Below are positions 9,161 through 31,495 of a stretch of DNA of 64,000 nucleotides, in pieces. The number at the start of each line of letters is the position of its first letter. Position 1 is the first letter of the stretch. The position numbers and the translations under genes are program-made. Source of the stretch: Bremerella volcania (GTDB lineage: Bacteria > Planctomycetota > Planctomycetia > Pirellulales > Pirellulaceae); the NCBI RefSeq assembly GCF_007748115.1, contig NZ_CP036289.1:5270001-5334000 (forward strand). The letters run 5' to 3'. A model generated the notes under the pieces. The model was not told the origin of the DNA and searched no databases. It worked only from the letters and a program-made list of their open reading frames with translations.

Positions 9161-10387
9161 CTACGAATCGACCGTGACGCCGCGGTACGTGACCTTGCCA
9201 CGCGTGGCACAGAAGCGCTCGGCGAGTTGCGGGATGTCGTTGGAATGCCCCAGGACGATCACCACGTCACCGATCCCGAGTACCGTTTCCGCAGGCGGGT
9301 TGAGCAACGTCGAGCCATCTTTCCGACGAAGGCCAACAATCAGGAAGCCGTGGTTACTCCTCAGCTCGATACTGCCGATTGTTTTGTCGACCAATGAGGA
9401 GCCGCTGGCGACGATCAATTCATCGAACCGAAGCCCAATACGATCTAGCTCTTCGTTCATGTCACCTTGAGTTGTCAACTGTTCGAGCATGTTTTCCGCC
9501 GACGGCCGAATGATCATGTGGGCGAGCTTCTTGGCTCCGATGGCGGTTGGCAAGACGACTTTATTGGCCCCACATCCGATGAGCTTCTTTTCCGTCTTGG
9601 GGTTCTCACCGCGCGCAATGATCATCATGTCGGGATTCATCCCCCGAGCCGTGACCGACACGAAGACGTTGGTGGCGTCTTCGGACAACACGGAAGCGAG
9701 CACCGCAGCCCGCTTGATGCCAGCCTGCTCTAACACGTGCTCGTCGGTGGCGTCCCCGTTGATGAAGAGATAGCCCAATTCCTCCGCCGAATTCAAACGC
9801 CGTTCGTCCGTGTCGATGACGACAAACGGTTTGCCTTTGGCGGCTAGTTCTCGGGCCAGGATCGAACCCATTCGGCCCACGCCACAGATAATGGTGTGAT
9901 TGTTCAATCGATCGATTTCCATGCACATACGTCGAGCTCCCAAGGCCTTCTGAAGTTCTCCATCCACCACCATCTGCATGAACCCGCCGACAGTGTAAAT
10001 GACGGCCCCATAACCAGCGATAATCACCATGATGGTCAAAGCTCGGAGGGGCATCGATTCGACGGGTTGGACTTCACCATAGCCTACGCCGAAGATCGTG
10101 ATGATCACCATGTAGATGGCATCATCCAGCCGCCAACCATGCGCCACATAGCCGAATACGGCCACCACGCAAATGGCGACAAATAGAGCAGCACCCGTGG
10201 CCATCTTGCGGATTGGACCAGAAAGAGGCTGTTTGCGTTGGGGTGGCGGATGATCTGGATCGAGATGATGTGATACCACGTTCGCTGTTTCACGTTGCGC
10301 GTAGGCTTGACCGCTGAACCCCATCCGCCAAGCGTGATTCAGCATGTTGGATACCACCGGTGATTTGGCAAAACACCCCATTCTCAC
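9161..10387 (-). CDS. Potassium channel with C-terminal TrkA-N/RCK domain
   Basis: The 408-residue protein is a two-transmembrane-helix K+ channel of MthK type. Helices are at about 63-83 and 115-135, with the selectivity filter FGVGYGEV around 99-106 between them; GYG is kept, but the position after it is Glu instead of the usual Asp. The Rossmann RCK domain begins near 165 with ICGVGRMGS, and a TrkA-C domain follows from about 325. It would gate K+ flux in response to nucleotide or Ca2+ ligands. A GTG start at 10387 has AAGGA 6 nt upstream; an ATG two codons in is the alternative. Confidence 0.92.
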   Translation of the reverse strand: MRMGCFAKSPVVSNMLNHAWRMGFSGQAYAQRETANVVSHHLDPDHPPPQRKQPLSGPIRKMATGAALFVAICVVAVFGYVAHGWRLDDAIYMVIITIFGVGYGEVQPVESMPLRALTIMVIIAGYGAVIYTVGGFMQMVVDGELQKALGARRMCMEIDRLNNHTIICGVGRMGSILARELAAKGKPFVVIDTDERRLNSAEELGYLFINGDATDEHVLEQAGIKRAAVLASVLSEDATNVFVSVTARGMNPDMMIIARGENPKTEKKLIGCGANKVVLPTAIGAKKLAHMIIRPSAENMLEQLTTQGDMNEELDRIGLRFDELIVASGSSLVDKTIGSIELRSNHGFLIVGLRRKDGSTLLNPPAETVLGIGDVVIVLGHSNDIPQLAERFCATRGKVTYRGVTVDS

Positions 10388-20730: not shown

Positions 20731-22533
20731 ATGACTTGCCTGCATGTTTCTCCCTTACCACTTCTGCGCAAGCTAGCCCTGTTTGCTGCTGTATTGCTAC
20801 TGGTTGGCTGTGGTAGCTCGTCAACACATCCATTTGCGATGGCGGAAGAGCAACAACCAGCCGCATCCAAGGAAGTAGCAGCTGATGACGAGCCTGCTGC
20901 CAAGGAAAAGGAAGTCGAGCATCCCTTCCGCGCCCGCATACCAGCTCCTGAGTTCCCCAAAGACATGGAGTGGATGAACACCGAGGGTCCCCTGGAACTC
21001 AAGGACCTCAAAGGGAAGTACGTCCTGCTCGATTTCTGGACATACTGCTGCATTAACTGCATTCATATCCTCCCAGAGCTTAAGAAGTTAGAGCACGAAT
21101 TCCCGAACCAGTTGGTCGTGGTTGGCGTTCACTCGGCCAAGTTTGATACGGAAAAAGAAGCCAAAAACATCAGCGAAGCGATCCTGCGATACGAGATCGA
21201 ACACCCTGTCGTCAATGACGACGAGATGAAGATCTGGAACAGCTTCAGCGTCAGCAGTTGGCCTACCATGTACCTGATCGATCCCGAAGGTAATGTTGTC
21301 TACCTTCGTCGTGGAGAGTTCAAAGCGGACGACATTCGCGAGGTGCTCAATCGATCGATGCCCTACTATCGAAACAATGGCTCGCTCGACGAAACTCCGA
21401 TCCAGTTCGATCTATTGGCCTACAACCAGCAGCCCACCCAACTGCGTTTTCCGGGGAAGATTTTGGCGGACGAAAAGTCGAATCGGTTGTTCATCTCCGA
21501 CAGCAATCACAACCGAATCGTCGTCACTTCGCTCGATGGTCAACTTCAGGATGTGATTGGTAGCGGCGAGGTCGGCTCCGCCGACGGCGGCTACGCATCG
21601 GCACAGTTCGATCATCCTCAAGGGATGGCCCTCATACAGGACACTTTGTATGTCGCCGACACCGAAAACCACCTCATTCGCAAAGTTGATCTGAAAGAGA
21701 AGCAGGTTTCGACGATCGCAGGCGTGGGCGAGCAAGCCCGAAACAATTGGCCAGGCGTGGGGGAAAGCGCCACCATATCAAGCCTGCCGGATCGATTCGT
21801 AGGATTGCCCAAGACGACCGCAATCAACAGTCCCTGGGATCTTTGGTCGCATGGCGACAGCCTCTACATCGCCATGGCGGGTCCGCACCAGATCTGGAAA
21901 ATGACACTCGACGAGAAAGAAATCGGCCCCTACGCAGGCAACGGTCGCGAAGACATCGTCGACGGTTCGCTACTCCCACCGGTACCATATCAGCAAGGAT
22001 ACTCGTCCTTCGCACAACCCTCTGGCCTCACCTCGGATGGAAAGTCGTTATTCGTGGCCGATAGCGAAGGAAGCTCGATCCGTGCCGTACCATTCGATCC
22101 TGAAGGAAGCGTGCGAACCGTGATCGGCACCGCCCATTTGCCTTACGGCCGCTTGTTCAGCTTCGGCGATGTGGACGGCCCTCCCAAAACTGCAAAACTA
22201 CAACATGCTCTGGGCGTCTGTTACGTTGACGGCGTCATCTACACGGCCGACACCTACAACAACAAGATTAAAGCCGTCGATGCGACGACTGGCGACGTCA
22301 AGACAATCGCCGGGACAGGCGAGCCAGGCATTGCCAACGATCCGGCTCAATTCGACGAACCAGCCGGTATTTCGCACGCCGCAGGCAAGCTTTACATCGC
22401 CGATACGAATAACCATATGATTCGCGTCATGGATCTTGAGACCAAAGAGACTTCCACCCTGGAGATCAAAGGGTTGAAGCCAATGCCGGTGAAGAAGCGT
22501 CCCGAAGTACCGGAGGGGGCGATTCAGAAGTGA
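20731..22533 (+). CDS. Thioredoxin-like/NHL-repeat lipoprotein (NHLRC2-like)
   Basis: The 600-residue protein has a lipoprotein signal with lipobox LLVGC, an acidic linker, a thioredoxin-like domain at about 75-210 with the active site FWTYCCINCIHILPEL (CxxC preceded by an extra Cys), and then a six-bladed NHL propeller at about 225-590 (repeated LFISDSNHNRIV, LYVADTENHLIRKVD, LYIADTNNHMIRVMD). The same order and the CCINC site are found in animal NHLRC2. It should face the periplasm and handle disulfides of an unknown partner. It ends 9 bp before the M-domain gene. Confidence 0.92.
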   Translation: MTCLHVSPLPLLRKLALFAAVLLLVGCGSSSTHPFAMAEEQQPAASKEVAADDEPAAKEKEVEHPFRARIPAPEFPKDMEWMNTEGPLELKDLKGKYVLLDFWTYCCINCIHILPELKKLEHEFPNQLVVVGVHSAKFDTEKEAKNISEAILRYEIEHPVVNDDEMKIWNSFSVSSWPTMYLIDPEGNVVYLRRGEFKADDIREVLNRSMPYYRNNGSLDETPIQFDLLAYNQQPTQLRFPGKILADEKSNRLFISDSNHNRIVVTSLDGQLQDVIGSGEVGSADGGYASAQFDHPQGMALIQDTLYVADTENHLIRKVDLKEKQVSTIAGVGEQARNNWPGVGESATISSLPDRFVGLPKTTAINSPWDLWSHGDSLYIAMAGPHQIWKMTLDEKEIGPYAGNGREDIVDGSLLPPVPYQQGYSSFAQPSGLTSDGKSLFVADSEGSSIRAVPFDPEGSVRTVIGTAHLPYGRLFSFGDVDGPPKTAKLQHALGVCYVDGVIYTADTYNNKIKAVDATTGDVKTIAGTGEPGIANDPAQFDEPAGISHAAGKLYIADTNNHMIRVMDLETKETSTLEIKGLKPMPVKKRPEVPEGAIQK

Positions 22534-22542
22534 GGTAGCTAA

Positions 22543-22980
22543 GTGGCATATACCTTTACACTGGACGATTTCAGAAAACAGCTTGAACAGATGGCTCGCC
22601 CCGGGCTATTGGAGAGGATGCTGGGGCTCATGCCGGGAATGGGCGAGATGACCAAGACCCTACAAAGCGGCGAGCACCAAAGGGAAATGCGCCGCCTGGG
22701 CGGCATGATCGACTCAATGACTCCAAGCGAACGCAGCAAACCTCAATCGATCGACGAAAGTCGACGGAGCCGGATCGCGAACGGCGCTGGAGTTTCTTTA
22801 CGAGAGGTAAATGATCTGCTCAAGCAGTTCGCCAGTATGGCTTCGCTAATGGAGTCGATGACAGAGGGTGGCACACGCAGCGCCATCGACAAAATGCGAG
22901 AGCTTCGTCGCGGAGAGATTGTCGATGGCTGGGATGATGACGATGAACCCTGGGATGACGACGACATCCTAGGCAGATAA
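22543..22980 (+). CDS. Free-standing SRP54 M-domain protein
   Basis: The 145-residue protein consists of an SRP54/Ffh M domain without the N and G (GTPase) domains. Residues 5-125 align without gaps to residues 327-447 of the ffh product encoded 243 bp downstream; I count 87 identities in 121 positions. The finger-loop PGMG and the RNA-binding helix region (SRRSRIANGAGVS, against SRRQRIAKGSGVS in Ffh) are kept. The tail differs: Ffh ends in a Lys/Arg-rich stretch, while this protein ends in WDDDDEPWDDDD. GTG start, with GAGGT 6 nt upstream. It could bind 4.5S RNA or signal peptides, or compete with Ffh; function is unproven. Confidence 0.85.
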   Translation: MAYTFTLDDFRKQLEQMARPGLLERMLGLMPGMGEMTKTLQSGEHQREMRRLGGMIDSMTPSERSKPQSIDESRRSRIANGAGVSLREVNDLLKQFASMASLMESMTEGGTRSAIDKMRELRRGEIVDGWDDDDEPWDDDDILGR

Positions 22981-23222
22981 GATCGCCCATAGCGGGCCAT
23001 GGCAATACAAACCACCTATCGTGGGGCCATGTCCTGGCGAAAAACCCTCTTTCCGCCCCGCTTTACCAATTGCCAACCTGCCGTGGGGTTCGCTAGAATA
23101 CGCGTTTCGACCCATCTCTCGGGAGTTGGCCGTAGGGTTGTTTTGTCTTTTTACAGGCAAGATCTTGGCCCTCGGAGCGAACTCCCAGCGACGTGATATT
23201 CGACCCCTAGGCAAAACTTCCG

Positions 23223-24683
23223 ATGTTGGAATCGTTACAAGACGGCTTGCAATCAGCGTTTAGGACGCTGCGCGGACAAGGCCGACTGACCGAATCGAAC
23301 ATGCGGGATGGCCTGAAACTGGTCGAAAACGCCCTGCTCGAAGCGGACGTAAGTTATGACGTCGTCAAGGCTTTCATGCAGGAGGTCTCTGAAAAAGCGG
23401 TCGGCCAGGACGTTCTCAAGTCGCTCAAGCCTGAGCAGCAGCTTGTTGGTATCGTCAACGAGGCCCTGATCGAACTTTTGGGGGGCGATTCCGACCCAAC
23501 CCTGCACCTGAAACAAGACGTCACCGTGCTGATGATGTGCGGTTTGCAGGGTGCCGGTAAGACGACCACGTGCGGGAAGCTGGCACGACTGATCAGCAAA
23601 GAGGGCAAAAAAGCCCTGCTCTGTGCCGCCGACCTTCAGCGCCCAGCCGCCGTCCAACAGCTTCATATCGTCGGCAAAAGCGTCGACACGCCCGTCTATA
23701 GTGAGCAGGGGGCCACCGACCCGATCGCCGTCTGCCAAAATGCCGTCAAGCATGCCAAAGACAATGGCATCGATGTCGTGATTCTCGACACGGCCGGCCG
23801 TTTGGCAATCGACGAAGAGCTGATGCAGCAGCTCAAAACGATCGACCTGAAGGTTCAGCCTGATAAGGCTTTCCTGGTGGTCGACGGTATGACCGGACAA
23901 GACGCAGTCAACAGTGCCAAGGCGTTTAACGACGCTTTGGACCTGGACGGCGTGATCATGACCAAGCTCGATGGCGATGCCCGAGGCGGTGCATTGCTGT
24001 CGGTCAAACATGTGACGGGCGTGCCGATCAAGTTTATCGGTACCAGCGAACACATGGACGGCCTCGATCCCTTCCATCCGGACCGCTTTGCGAGCCGGAT
24101 CCTTGGAATGGGCGACATCCAGTCGATGTTCGAGATGGCCCAACGTGAGTTCGACCAGGAACAAGTCCAGAAGACGCAGGAACGGCTTCAAAAGGGGCAG
24201 TTCACGCTGGACGACTTCCGCAAGCAGCTCAACCAGATCGCTCGCCCCGGCCTGATGCAAAAGATGCTCGGCCTGATGCCTGGCATGGGCGAAATGACCA
24301 AGATGCTGCAAGGTGGCGACCACGAAAAAGAAATGCGCCGGTTAGGCGGGATGATCGATTCGATGACCCCGGCCGAACGCAGCGATCCCAAGCTGATCGA
24401 CAACAGCCGTCGCCAGCGGATCGCCAAAGGCTCTGGAGTTTCCCCGCAAGAGGTCAACGAACTGATCAAGCAGTTCGACAGCATGGCCTCGCTGATGAAG
24501 GGAATGGCCGGTGGCGGCGTGGGCGGCGCAATGGACATGATGCGGAAGCTTCGCAGTGGCGAGCTGATGGATCCGACTGGTAAGATGAAAAAATCCAAGC
24601 AAAGCACCGGCAAACGGATGACCGCCAAGGATGTCCAGAACCAGAAGAAACTCAAGAAGAAGCTCAAAAAGCGGCGTCGTTAA
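23223..24683 (+). CDS. ffh: Signal recognition particle protein Ffh
   Basis: Ffh with 4.5S RNA recognises signal sequences and delivers ribosomes to FtsY. The 486-residue protein has the N domain (1-95), G domain with GLQGAGKTTTCG from residue 107, DTAGR near 189 and TKLDGDARGG near 247, and the methionine-rich M domain from 327 with the RNA-binding SRRQRIAKGSGV. The tail is a basic Lys/Arg run. It heads ffh-rpsP-trmD-rplS, with only 51 bp to rpsP. A partial M-domain paralogue lies just upstream. I found no 4.5S RNA gene in the window. Confidence 0.97.
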   Translation: MLESLQDGLQSAFRTLRGQGRLTESNMRDGLKLVENALLEADVSYDVVKAFMQEVSEKAVGQDVLKSLKPEQQLVGIVNEALIELLGGDSDPTLHLKQDVTVLMMCGLQGAGKTTTCGKLARLISKEGKKALLCAADLQRPAAVQQLHIVGKSVDTPVYSEQGATDPIAVCQNAVKHAKDNGIDVVILDTAGRLAIDEELMQQLKTIDLKVQPDKAFLVVDGMTGQDAVNSAKAFNDALDLDGVIMTKLDGDARGGALLSVKHVTGVPIKFIGTSEHMDGLDPFHPDRFASRILGMGDIQSMFEMAQREFDQEQVQKTQERLQKGQFTLDDFRKQLNQIARPGLMQKMLGLMPGMGEMTKMLQGGDHEKEMRRLGGMIDSMTPAERSDPKLIDNSRRQRIAKGSGVSPQEVNELIKQFDSMASLMKGMAGGGVGGAMDMMRKLRSGELMDPTGKMKKSKQSTGKRMTAKDVQNQKKLKKKLKKRRR

Positions 24684-29256: not shown

Positions 29257-30819
29257 TTACGCACCGCAACCGCAATCGCTGGCAGCAGCTTCGCCACCGC
29301 AGCATGGGTCACAGCAAGGGGCCGGGCAGCAAACCGTGACCGGGACCGTCTTGCAGATGGTCTTTGGAACGCAGCGAGTAACCGTGTAAGCAACCTTCTT
29401 CGGCACGCACTTAGCAACCTTAACGGTCTTGGTGGTGTGAACAGGCTTCTTCACGCAGTAAGGAACCTGCTTGGTGTGGGTCTCTTGGACCATCTTGCAC
29501 ACCTTGTAAGGAACTTCCTTCGTGTGGCACTCTTGGACCATCTTGCAAACCTTGTAGGTGCAAGTCTTGGTACGCTGCTCAGGAACCATCTTGCAAACCT
29601 TGTAGGTGCAGGTCTTGGTACGCTGTTCAGGAACCATCTTGCAAACCTGGTAGGTGCAAGTCTTGGTCTTGTTTTCCTTCACCATGTGGCAGACCTTGTA
29701 GGTGCAGGTCTTCACACGCTGTTCAGGAACCATCTTGCAAACCTTGTAGGTGCAAGTCTTGGTACGCTGTTCAGGAACCATGTGGCAAACCTTGTAGGTG
29801 CAGGTCTTCACACGTTGTTCCTTCTCCATGCGGCACACTTTGTAAGGAACTTGTTCGGTGATGGTTTCGTGTTCGTAACGAACGCAATCAACGGTCTTTT
29901 CAGTGACTTCTGGAACCCAGACCTTCTTGCAGCAGGTCTTTGGTGGGCACTGAACTTCAACAACCTTGGTTTCGCCTGGGCAGTAGACGCACTTGCACTT
30001 GCAAGGGTCCCAAGTCCAGCAACCTGGCTCTTGAATGCACTTCTTCACGACAGGACCGGGGATCGTTTCGGTCTTGGTTTCCCAGTGACCGCCACAGACC
30101 TTAACCGTCTTGGTGTAGTGAACTGGCTTGCAGATCGTCTTACAAACGTCACGGTACTTCGTTTCGTAGACCGGCTTGCAAACGGTGTAGCAGATGTCCT
30201 TGGTCTTGGTTTCCCAGACAGGCTTGCAGACCGTGTAGCAGATCTCTTTGGTCTTCGTTTCCCAAACTGGCTTGCAGACGGTGTAGCAGATGTCCTTGGT
30301 CTTGGTTTCCCAGACAGGCTTGCAAACCGTGTAGCAGATTTCCTTGGTTCGGGTCTCGTAGACTGGCTTGCACACGGTGTAGCAAATTTCCTTGGTCTTG
30401 GTTTCCCAGACAGGCTTGCACACGGTGTAGCAGATGTCCTTGGTTCGGGTTTCCCAGACCGGCTTGCAGGTGGTGTAGTTCACCGTGCGGTACTTGGTTT
30501 CCCAAACTGGCTTGCACGTGGTGTACGTGCAATCTTTGTAGCGCGTTTCCGTTTCGTAGGTAACGCAATCCACAGTCTTGTCTTCATAGACCGTTTCATA
30601 GACGGTCTTGTAGCAGGTTTGTTCCTGCTGTTCGTAAACAGTCTCTTTGCAGGTCTTGTTTACGGTGTAGCACTGCTGCTTGCAGCACTCGTAAGTTGCT
30701 GGCTCGCAACAACCAGCATTCCGGAAGCTGAACAGACCGCCATAAGCGGCTTCAGCCGAGTTCGCCGAAAAAGCAGCCAACATGACCGCTAGGATCGGCA
30801 ATCCCAATACAGCTCGCAT
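29257..30819 (-). CDS. Secreted cysteine-rich YTV-repeat protein (planctomycete wall protein)
   Basis: The 520-residue protein begins with a signal peptide (residues 1-25) and contains about 63 cysteines by my count. It is built from 16-residue repeats: nine units around CYTVCKPVWETKTK (97-236), a spacer with CWTWDPCKCKCVYC (261-282), eight units around YKVCKMVPEQRTKTC (325-455), and a CCPAPCCDPCCGG end. This matches the YTV-domain proteins I recall being found in the detergent-insoluble wall fraction of Rhodopirellula baltica, so a disulfide-linked envelope role is likely. The ATG at 30819 has GAAGGAG upstream and fits the signal peptide. The repeats make a long empty frame on the other strand. 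Confidence 0.9.
   Translation of the reverse strand: MRAVLGLPILAVMLAAFSANSAEAAYGGLFSFRNAGCCEPATYECCKQQCYTVNKTCKETVYEQQEQTCYKTVYETVYEDKTVDCVTYETETRYKDCTYTTCKPVWETKYRTVNYTTCKPVWETRTKDICYTVCKPVWETKTKEICYTVCKPVYETRTKEICYTVCKPVWETKTKDICYTVCKPVWETKTKEICYTVCKPVWETKTKDICYTVCKPVYETKYRDVCKTICKPVHYTKTVKVCGGHWETKTETIPGPVVKKCIQEPGCWTWDPCKCKCVYCPGETKVVEVQCPPKTCCKKVWVPEVTEKTVDCVRYEHETITEQVPYKVCRMEKEQRVKTCTYKVCHMVPEQRTKTCTYKVCKMVPEQRVKTCTYKVCHMVKENKTKTCTYQVCKMVPEQRTKTCTYKVCKMVPEQRTKTCTYKVCKMVQECHTKEVPYKVCKMVQETHTKQVPYCVKKPVHTTKTVKVAKCVPKKVAYTVTRCVPKTICKTVPVTVCCPAPCCDPCCGGEAAASDCGCGA
29455..29847 (-). repeat. 48-bp coding repeats, C-terminal block of the YTV protein
   Basis: Eight imperfect 48-bp units encode 16-residue repeats of the YKVC(K/H)MVPEQRTKTC type. 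The second to sixth are nearly alike, consistent with recent expansion or gene conversion. Confidence 0.88.
30112..30531 (-). repeat. 48-bp coding repeats, N-terminal block of the YTV protein
   Basis: Nine imperfect 48-bp units encode CKPV(W/Y)ET(K/R) repeats with Cys spaced 4 and 12 residues apart in alternation. Units alternate between KTKD and KTKE endings, suggesting duplication of a two-unit block. Confidence 0.88.
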
Positions 30820-31495
30820 TTTCCTTCTCCTTCGTTGACAAAACGCCGTACGACTAAGGGCCTGGCCTGGTTTGGGCAAATCCTTGCCGTGTCCTGTGCC
30901 CTCAAACATTGAATCGTGCAATATCTCCTGCTATCGCCCGTTTATCCAAAGCACCTACTCAGGGCGTCTTTCACGTCATGCAATGACAACCCAAGTCGCC
31001 TATTCAGCGCTCAGATGTCCTTCTGTATCGTCAATTTGGGTCAGATGCTTGAGATCGAACAAATAGGTGCTTTTCAAAAGATGAGAAGACACGCATATAT
31101 GGGAAGAGTGCAAGCATCGAATCGAATGCAACGGTTAAGAGACTCTTCTTCAGATGTGAGGGTTGTAAGAGAAATTGCGCGAGTAGCTTTTACACGGGTT
31201 TTTCAGGGGGTATAGCGAATCCACCTATCAGGATTGGTGCCGGATACGACTCAATCTTCGACTACCTCGAAGCCAGCGTGCCGAGAGGAACCCCTGCTTA
31301 TGGATGGCATGCATGCGTTTTGAGGAAAATCTTCTTGACCCAGCTTTCGCATGACGTATCTACCTTCAGAAAGCAAATACATCACTGCTTTCAGGTAATC
31401 CACCCACGCAAATAAAACACGATCCTTGCTGATTGATCAGAGGCGGGAAATCTCCCTAAACGAATCAGCAGAATTCGACTTGGAGTGTCAAGACA
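30820..31495. other. Long intergenic region, no gene seen
   Basis: These 676 bp lie between the divergent YTV and pseudopilin genes. Short frames of up to 99 residues exist but have no start signals or protein-like composition. Near the pseudopilin start there is an inverted repeat TGCTGATT (31428-31435) / AATCAGCA (31463-31470), and GGGAAATCTCCC at 31445-31456, which could form a leader hairpin. Promoters for both genes must lie here. Confidence 0.5.

Follow-up and report, generated by a model that had tools for sequence, protein, structure and literature searches.

A stand-alone SRP54 M-domain gene with an acidic tail upstream of ffh in Bremerella volcania

Introduction

The M domain is familiar as one domain of an essential GTPase. 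An excerpt of PMC4737761 describes it as binding SRP RNA with picomolar affinity and, on the ribosome, as touching almost only 23S rRNA while the C terminus enters the tunnel. For the chloroplast SRP54, the parts of PMC11427828 and PMC4660199 at hand describe a basic tail motif that docks on the ribosome and on cpSRP43. Among the PMC titles and abstract openings listed by our searches, which cover few subscription papers, we found no description of natural genes encoding an M domain only. Such genes would separate RNA and signal-peptide binding from targeting, and they might modulate one of the cell's most conserved pathways.

Herein, we describe a gene of this kind in a 64,000-nucleotide stretch of the Bremerella volcania genome (the window). 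It is a real, selected and dispensable partial paralogue of ffh. An initial annotation made from the letters of the window had proposed such a gene, and our analysis follows its claims into related genomes, labelled G000 (the window genome) onward.

Results

The gene in front of ffh encodes an M domain and no other recognizable domain (Table 1). SRP_SPB (PF02978) matched residues 4-103 over profile positions 1-91 with 98.8 bits against a cut-off of 27 (E 2.4e-28), a full-length match above the gathering score, and no other Pfam family, the GTPase domain included, was found in the 145-residue protein at E up to 0.001. With PF02978 alone, the protein does not have the N and G domains and P-loop of an SRP54/Ffh GTPase, and its score against the TIGR00959 equivalog was 94.9 bits, the cut-off being 473.2. 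Pairwise alignment of residues 5-125 with residues 327-447 of the Ffh of the same genome gave 87 of 121 identical positions without a gap. In a whole-genome protein search, the two proteins matched at E 4.8e-53; their likeness is not due to chance. The genome searched is one contig of 6,496,182 bases, and the protein query and PF02978 each found two M-domain places in it, the M gene and ffh.

Table 1. Positions of the M-domain gene, its neighbours and the SRP RNA pair. Coordinates are those of the window except in the last line.
Feature	Position	Strand	Basis
Stand-alone M-domain gene, 145 aa, GTG start	22543-22980	+	PF02978 E 2.4e-28; 87/121 identity; AlphaFold/PDB match
Acidic tail DGWDDDDEPWDDDDILGR in place of the basic Ffh tail, predicted disordered	22924-22977	+	sequence; pLDDT ~50
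GAGG, ribosome-binding-site-like, 7 bases 5' of GTG, overlapping the upstream TGA	22532-22535	+	sequence
Thioredoxin-like and NHL-repeat gene, upstream neighbour	20731-22533	+	Pfam NHL 1e-24, Thioredoxin_8 5.4e-18
ffh, full-length SRP protein, 486 aa, basic tail	23223-24683	+	PF02881, PF00448, PF02978
Part of ffh homologous to the M gene (residues 327-447)	24201-24563	+	alignment
ffh promoter-like site TTGCCA-18-TAGAAT, then conserved leader	23070-23099	+	scan; block kept in genus
Tandem SRP RNA pair, outside the window	G000:C1 2869286-2869381 and 2869158-2869243	-	43.7 and 32.4 bits

The charge of the tail is reversed. The last 27 residues of the M protein carry a net charge of -8, and the last 45 residues of Ffh carry +16. 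All three close orthologue genomes (G000, G001 and G004) encode the acidic tail. These results agree with the initial annotation, which had reported an M-domain-only gene next to ffh without a GTPase domain, an acidic tail instead of the basic one and the same gap-free count of 87 of 121. Its statement that most matching codons differ was overstated: the codon differs at 38 of the 87 identical residues, or at 38 of 76 without Met and Trp, which is half. That the gene is not a fresh copy nevertheless stands, as it is a genuine selected paralogue with a charge-reversed tail carried by close relatives. A frameshift or pseudogene of ffh was ruled out; the M gene has its own start and ribosome-binding site and is stop-free, and the adjoining ffh is intact.

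An AlphaFold model built with 21 sequences had a mean pLDDT of 74 and a pTM of 0.55. The RNA-binding half (residues 51-100) reached a pLDDT of 89-93, the groove half 64-79 and the tail about 50. A Foldseek search of the PDB gave five hits at E up to 0.001, all of them SRP54/Ffh with TM scores of 0.49-0.55 of the query, the best being 5aka_5 (E 2e-4, TM 0.53 of the query). AlphaFold and Foldseek together thus predict an M-domain fold.

Residue retention was counted at 81 positions invariant in nine Ffh proteins of the genus, with region limits of our own and region names that we took, by assumption, from general M-domain anatomy. The window copy keeps 10/11 of these positions in helix 1, 6/8 in residues 18-27, 11/12 in the finger loop, 9/11 in residues 44-57, 17/20 in the RNA motif and 13/19 in the last helix, which upholds the earlier claim that the finger loop and RNA-binding helix are kept. 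All three orthologues retain 10/11 positions of helix 1 and 9/11 of residues 44-57. For G000, G001 and G004, respectively, the finger loop keeps 11/12, 9/12 and 7/12 positions and the RNA motif 17/20, 15/20 and 19/20; through these residues, the proteins may bind signal peptides and SRP RNA. The G001 motif reads GRRLQIAKGTG versus SRRQRIAKGSG, residues of which we take to contact RNA in E. coli Ffh. Because this motif is changed in G001 and the G006 copy described below is only 37% identical, RNA binding may not be a conserved trait. The M proteins have 9-11 Met, versus 12 and 14 in two Ffh proteins. The G003 Ffh was included in the tree and in this retention count, and left out of the dN/dS alignment and the codon and charge comparisons.

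The genus sample consisted of nine genomes, G000 to G008, all searched with the M protein; the PF02978 profile was run on seven at E up to 1 and on G006 and G000 at 0.001. A gene with the acidic tail lies between the NHL gene and ffh in three of the nine, G000, G001 and G004. The same slot in G006 holds a 117-residue M-like protein, 37% identical to the window copy, with the tail GWPPTGDNPPPI. Only 256-281 bases fill it in G002, G003 and G005, without an M gene; although the G005 assembly is only 68% complete, it includes the slot region. An unrelated gene, nucleoside-hydrolase-like by eye, occupies the slot in G007 and G008 (L054 and L055). By protein and PF02978 searches, the M gene is therefore missing from five of nine genus genomes (G002, G003, G005, G007 and G008). 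Nine sub-threshold PF02978 matches (12.7-17.5 bits) fell in other ORFs of six of the seven genomes searched at E up to 1. Because five genomes lack it, the M gene is dispensable. Absence from close relatives had been named beforehand as a result that would speak against the gene; it is found in these five, but G001 and G004 carry the gene.

In the window, as in all eight genus relatives, the thioredoxin-NHL gene precedes ffh. Its protein has a lipobox-like LVGC near the N terminus, recognized by eye, and nine bases separate its end at 22533 from the GTG of the M gene. Downstream, the promoter-like scan found two sites where 2.0 were expected in shuffled sequence, so the scan alone proves nothing. 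A block TTACCAATTGCCA...TAGAAT...CGACCCATCTCTCGG, about 100-160 bases 5' of ffh, is kept in nine of nine genus genomes. It is because of this conservation, and not because of the scan, that ffh probably has its own promoter; the M gene, if transcribed, would therefore share a transcript with the lipoprotein gene. The nine-base spacing reported in the initial annotation is correct. The link it drew to an exported protein is weak because two sister genomes hold the nucleoside-hydrolase-like gene in the same slot and because the conserved promoter-like block separates the M gene from ffh. Elsewhere in the window (29257-30921, - strand), a Cys-rich protein made of repeated YTVCKPVWETKTKE-like units is encoded.

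The M gene is under purifying selection among the three species. By the Nei-Gojobori method, its dN/dS was 0.19 for G000-G004 (bootstrap 0.11-0.32), 0.24 for G000-G001 (0.15-0.37) and 0.29 for G004-G001 (0.17-0.48), at a dS of 0.64-0.76. This check had been proposed earlier, and all upper bounds lie below 0.5, not near 1. A conversion tract in G004 could distort both pairs with that genome, and does not touch G000-G001. For the same genome pairs, dN/dS was 0.04-0.06 for the Ffh M domain and 0.06 for the NHL gene, and the M gene exceeded the Ffh M domain in dN by a factor of about 6-11.

The M-domain tree placed the M genes of G000, G001 and G004 inside the Ffh clade of the genus, with their group supported at 92/99; on this placement, the M gene is derived from the ffh of its own genus. 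Silent divergence among the three M genes (pS 0.43-0.48) is below or close to that between each M gene and its own ffh (0.63, 0.62 and 0.47, the last lowered by conversion), which fits one duplication before the species split. The G004 M gene shares 71 nt with one mismatch with its own ffh, a run that none of 5000 codon permutations equalled. Runs of this kind reached 19 nt at most in both G000 and G001 (p 0.85 and 0.72, respectively). Therefore, the M gene and ffh exchanged sequence in at least one genome.

The G006 copy is saturated at silent sites relative to the carriers (pS 0.78-0.83, from an alignment that is uncertain at 37% identity); the NHL gene has a pS of 0.52 between G000 and G006. 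The full Ffh tree joins G000, G001, G004 and G006 in one clade (96/95). In the NHL tree, G006 groups with G000 and G004 (99/96) and G001 falls outside, and the four-genome clade was not rejected (p 0.236). The short M-domain tree groups the G006 gene with G142 and G036 (95/88, on long branches); a clade of it with the three M genes was not rejected (p 0.327), and neither was a control clade (p 0.376). The join of the G137 M domain with its own Ffh is unsure as well (p 0.637). Given the position of G006 within the group of carriers, its gene either descends from the M gene of the others and has diverged freely, or has taken the place of that gene.

Beyond the genus, M-only or M-fused genes are sporadic. 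PF02978 found them in 11 of 149 family genomes, and the A2 profile of diverged M-like proteins found eight more in 297 class genomes. The two sets share 33 genomes by our own count, about 413 in total. The count of at least 19 of about 413 related genomes is a lower bound because 15 candidates per genome were scored in the class search. Five genomes were left out of it: G061 has a piece of Ffh at the end of a contig, G077 has one ffh that appears on two contigs, the matches in G301 and G329 lie at contig edges, and G351 has a full but degenerate Ffh. The weak members G071, G174 and G284 are included. The gene adjoins ffh in 7 of the 19, upstream in G000, G001, G004, G006, G340 and G230 and as two copies downstream in G242. 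The other M-like genes lie on a different contig from ffh or far off, in drafts whose fragmentation cannot exclude nearness. An M gene as a general upstream neighbour of ffh was rejected, since a search of 80 further ffh-upstream regions found no M-like ORF at E below 1. Among named sequences, the window protein matched best to three from Planctomycetota-type MAGs. A contig search gave 34 loci; of 26 inspected, 25 had a P-loop in a full Ffh-like ORF, and the remaining one (L024) was cut by the contig end.

The M-like proteins encoded next to ffh have tails with Trp and Asp/Pro, a pattern noticed after the fact. In G242 (L195, ~1166-2280, - strand), two M-like stretches directly 3' of ffh each end with or near WDFTLD. 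Two closely similar M-like genes lie about 6 kb apart in G238 (L196:3543-3890 and 9869-10279, + strand), off the ffh contig. G137 (L136:5439-7028, + strand) encodes an ADP-ribosylglycohydrolase (PF03747) fused to an M domain, with a hydrophobic stretch at the C terminus. The M-like proteins of two distant genomes, G069 (L134:6905-7330, + strand) and G321 (L197), end in a zinc-ribbon-like CPWCG.

G351 (L194:1402-2799, + strand) carries a second Ffh in tandem before ffh. Its P-loop reads GQPGSGTTTT versus GLQGSGKTTT, with the lysine lost; its M domain differs little from that of the adjoining Ffh, and it ends in the acidic tail EIEPEFDDDVENEKDDE. The combination of a lost or broken GTPase and an acidic tail has thus also arisen in a different lineage, along a different path.

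Carriage of the M gene by a mobile element or phage was thought unlikely from viral, phage and plasmid searches. No relative was found in viral contigs at the sensitivity of that search. Phage records gave 18 matches, all below 60% identity, of which 4 were annotated, as SRP protein, and 14 were unannotated. Plasmid records gave 56 matches, all below 60% identity (20 of the 56 listed).

The genome also encodes, far from the window, a tandem pair of SRP RNAs (Table 1), the second copy (b, 32.4 bits) scoring below the cut-off of 40 bits. Both cores are present in seven of the eight genus genomes with a match, and G003 has a broken-looking copy b; the incomplete assembly of G005 gave no SRP RNA match. 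Outside the genus, 1 of 86 genomes in a 90-genome family sample had two SRP RNAs (G126, on two contigs), under a strict filter that may miss weak copies. The core of copy b is canonical, GUCAGG...GGAGCAGCC, in G000, G001, G004 and G006, whose slot holds an M or M-like gene. It has an extra A (GUCAAGG) in G002, G003, G007 and G008, which are without the M gene. As the four carriers form one clade in the Ffh tree, this co-occurrence may be a single event, and we treat it as a lead and not as a sign that the two act together. Copy b occurs throughout the genus, which rules out a second SRP RNA present only where the M gene is. One reading that these cores suggest, though an improbable one, is that the M-only protein and copy b would form a GTPase-less SRP-like RNP that senses or stores hydrophobic segments without targeting.

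Discussion

We tentatively favour a reading in which the M-only protein moderates SRP from off the ribosome, by buffering SRP RNA and hydrophobic peptides or acting as a decoy for them; we hold this to be possible and somewhat short of an even chance. The initial annotation had put forward a competitor, a chaperone or a regulator of SRP as possible roles. It starts from computed results, namely the homology, the place of the gene, purifying selection, conversion in G004 and the charge reversal of the tail. A partial tandem duplication of ffh would have left a 3' M-domain copy upstream of the ffh promoter and behind the lipoprotein gene. If expressed, and if folded in vivo as an M domain, the protein may hold SRP RNA, hydrophobic (signal or membrane) segments or both. 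It lacks the GTPase that docks on FtsY, and its acidic tail would fit poorly into the exit tunnel, which is lined with rRNA and receives the C terminus of Ffh. Without a GTPase and with a strongly acidic tail, binding of RNA or peptide would be kept and docking on ribosome and receptor would be poor, and this is why a role off the ribosome as a buffer or decoy is favoured. The acidic, Trp-containing tail could possibly pair with the basic tail of Ffh. Expression, RNA and peptide binding and the effect on SRP are steps that we infer.

The ffh origin, the dN/dS bounds, the conversion tract, the predicted fold and the retention of most of the groove and of the RNA motif by the window copy support the buffer or decoy, with a parallel in the tandem Ffh of G351, which lost its P-loop lysine and has an acidic tail. 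Against it, the RNA motif is changed in G001 and the G006 copy has diverged to 37% identity, finger-loop retention falls to 9/12 in G001 and 7/12 in G004, five of nine genus genomes do without the gene, and evolution is fast. The last two points would suit a functionless partial ffh copy drifting slowly to loss, as would the sporadic occurrence elsewhere (19 of about 413 genomes) and the strong divergence of the G006 copy, nested among carriers in the NHL tree. We nevertheless regard such decay as unlikely, given dN/dS values of 0.19-0.29 with upper bounds below 0.5 together with a stop-free frame, a ribosome-binding site and, in three species at a dS of 0.64-0.76, an acidic tail.

A holdase for hydrophobic segments only, a cytosolic chaperone of lipoprotein or membrane precursors that has lost the use of SRP RNA, would explain why the Met content is nearly kept and why G001 has changes in its RNA motif when all three proteins retain helix 1 and residues 44-57, and the gene does lie behind a lipoprotein-like gene. 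However, the RNA motif is nearly intact in G000 and G004, the finger loop is less kept than helix 1, and G007 and G008 have an unrelated gene at this place; we regard this role as doubtful. Still less probable is an autoregulator that sets the level of ffh or of SRP RNA by binding RNA. An M-like gene adjoins ffh in 7 of 19 genomes and a conserved leader precedes ffh; yet that leader is equally conserved in genomes without the M gene, has no Rfam match at E up to 1, and the adjacency follows from tandem birth.

Comparison with known systems

The isolated M-domain chains in the PDB (1dul, 5aka chain 5 and 4ue4 chain C) have nearly the same domain boundaries as the M protein; we take them to be pieces or visible parts of full-length proteins and not natural genes. 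In the chloroplast, as the excerpts cited above describe it, the basic SRP54 tail is recognized by a partner protein, the cpSRP43 chromodomain. That case differs in having no homology to ours, and a pairing of the acidic M tail with the Ffh tail would be our own analogy. Closer are the diverged M-like proteins of G006, G036, G142, G230, G340 and others, which are derived from M domains, do not have an Ffh-like basic tail and in some cases are encoded beside ffh. They are 20-31% identical to the G006 protein, and in several the PF02978 match covers only the C-terminal half. The closest system is Ffh/SRP54 itself (TIGR00959; PF02881, PF00448 and PF02978). Its M domain is homologous, at about 70% identity to the Ffh of the same genome, and the predicted fold of the M protein matches the M domains of Ffh structures in the PDB. 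The M protein differs from Ffh/SRP54 in being without the N and G domains and in having a tail that is acidic, not basic.
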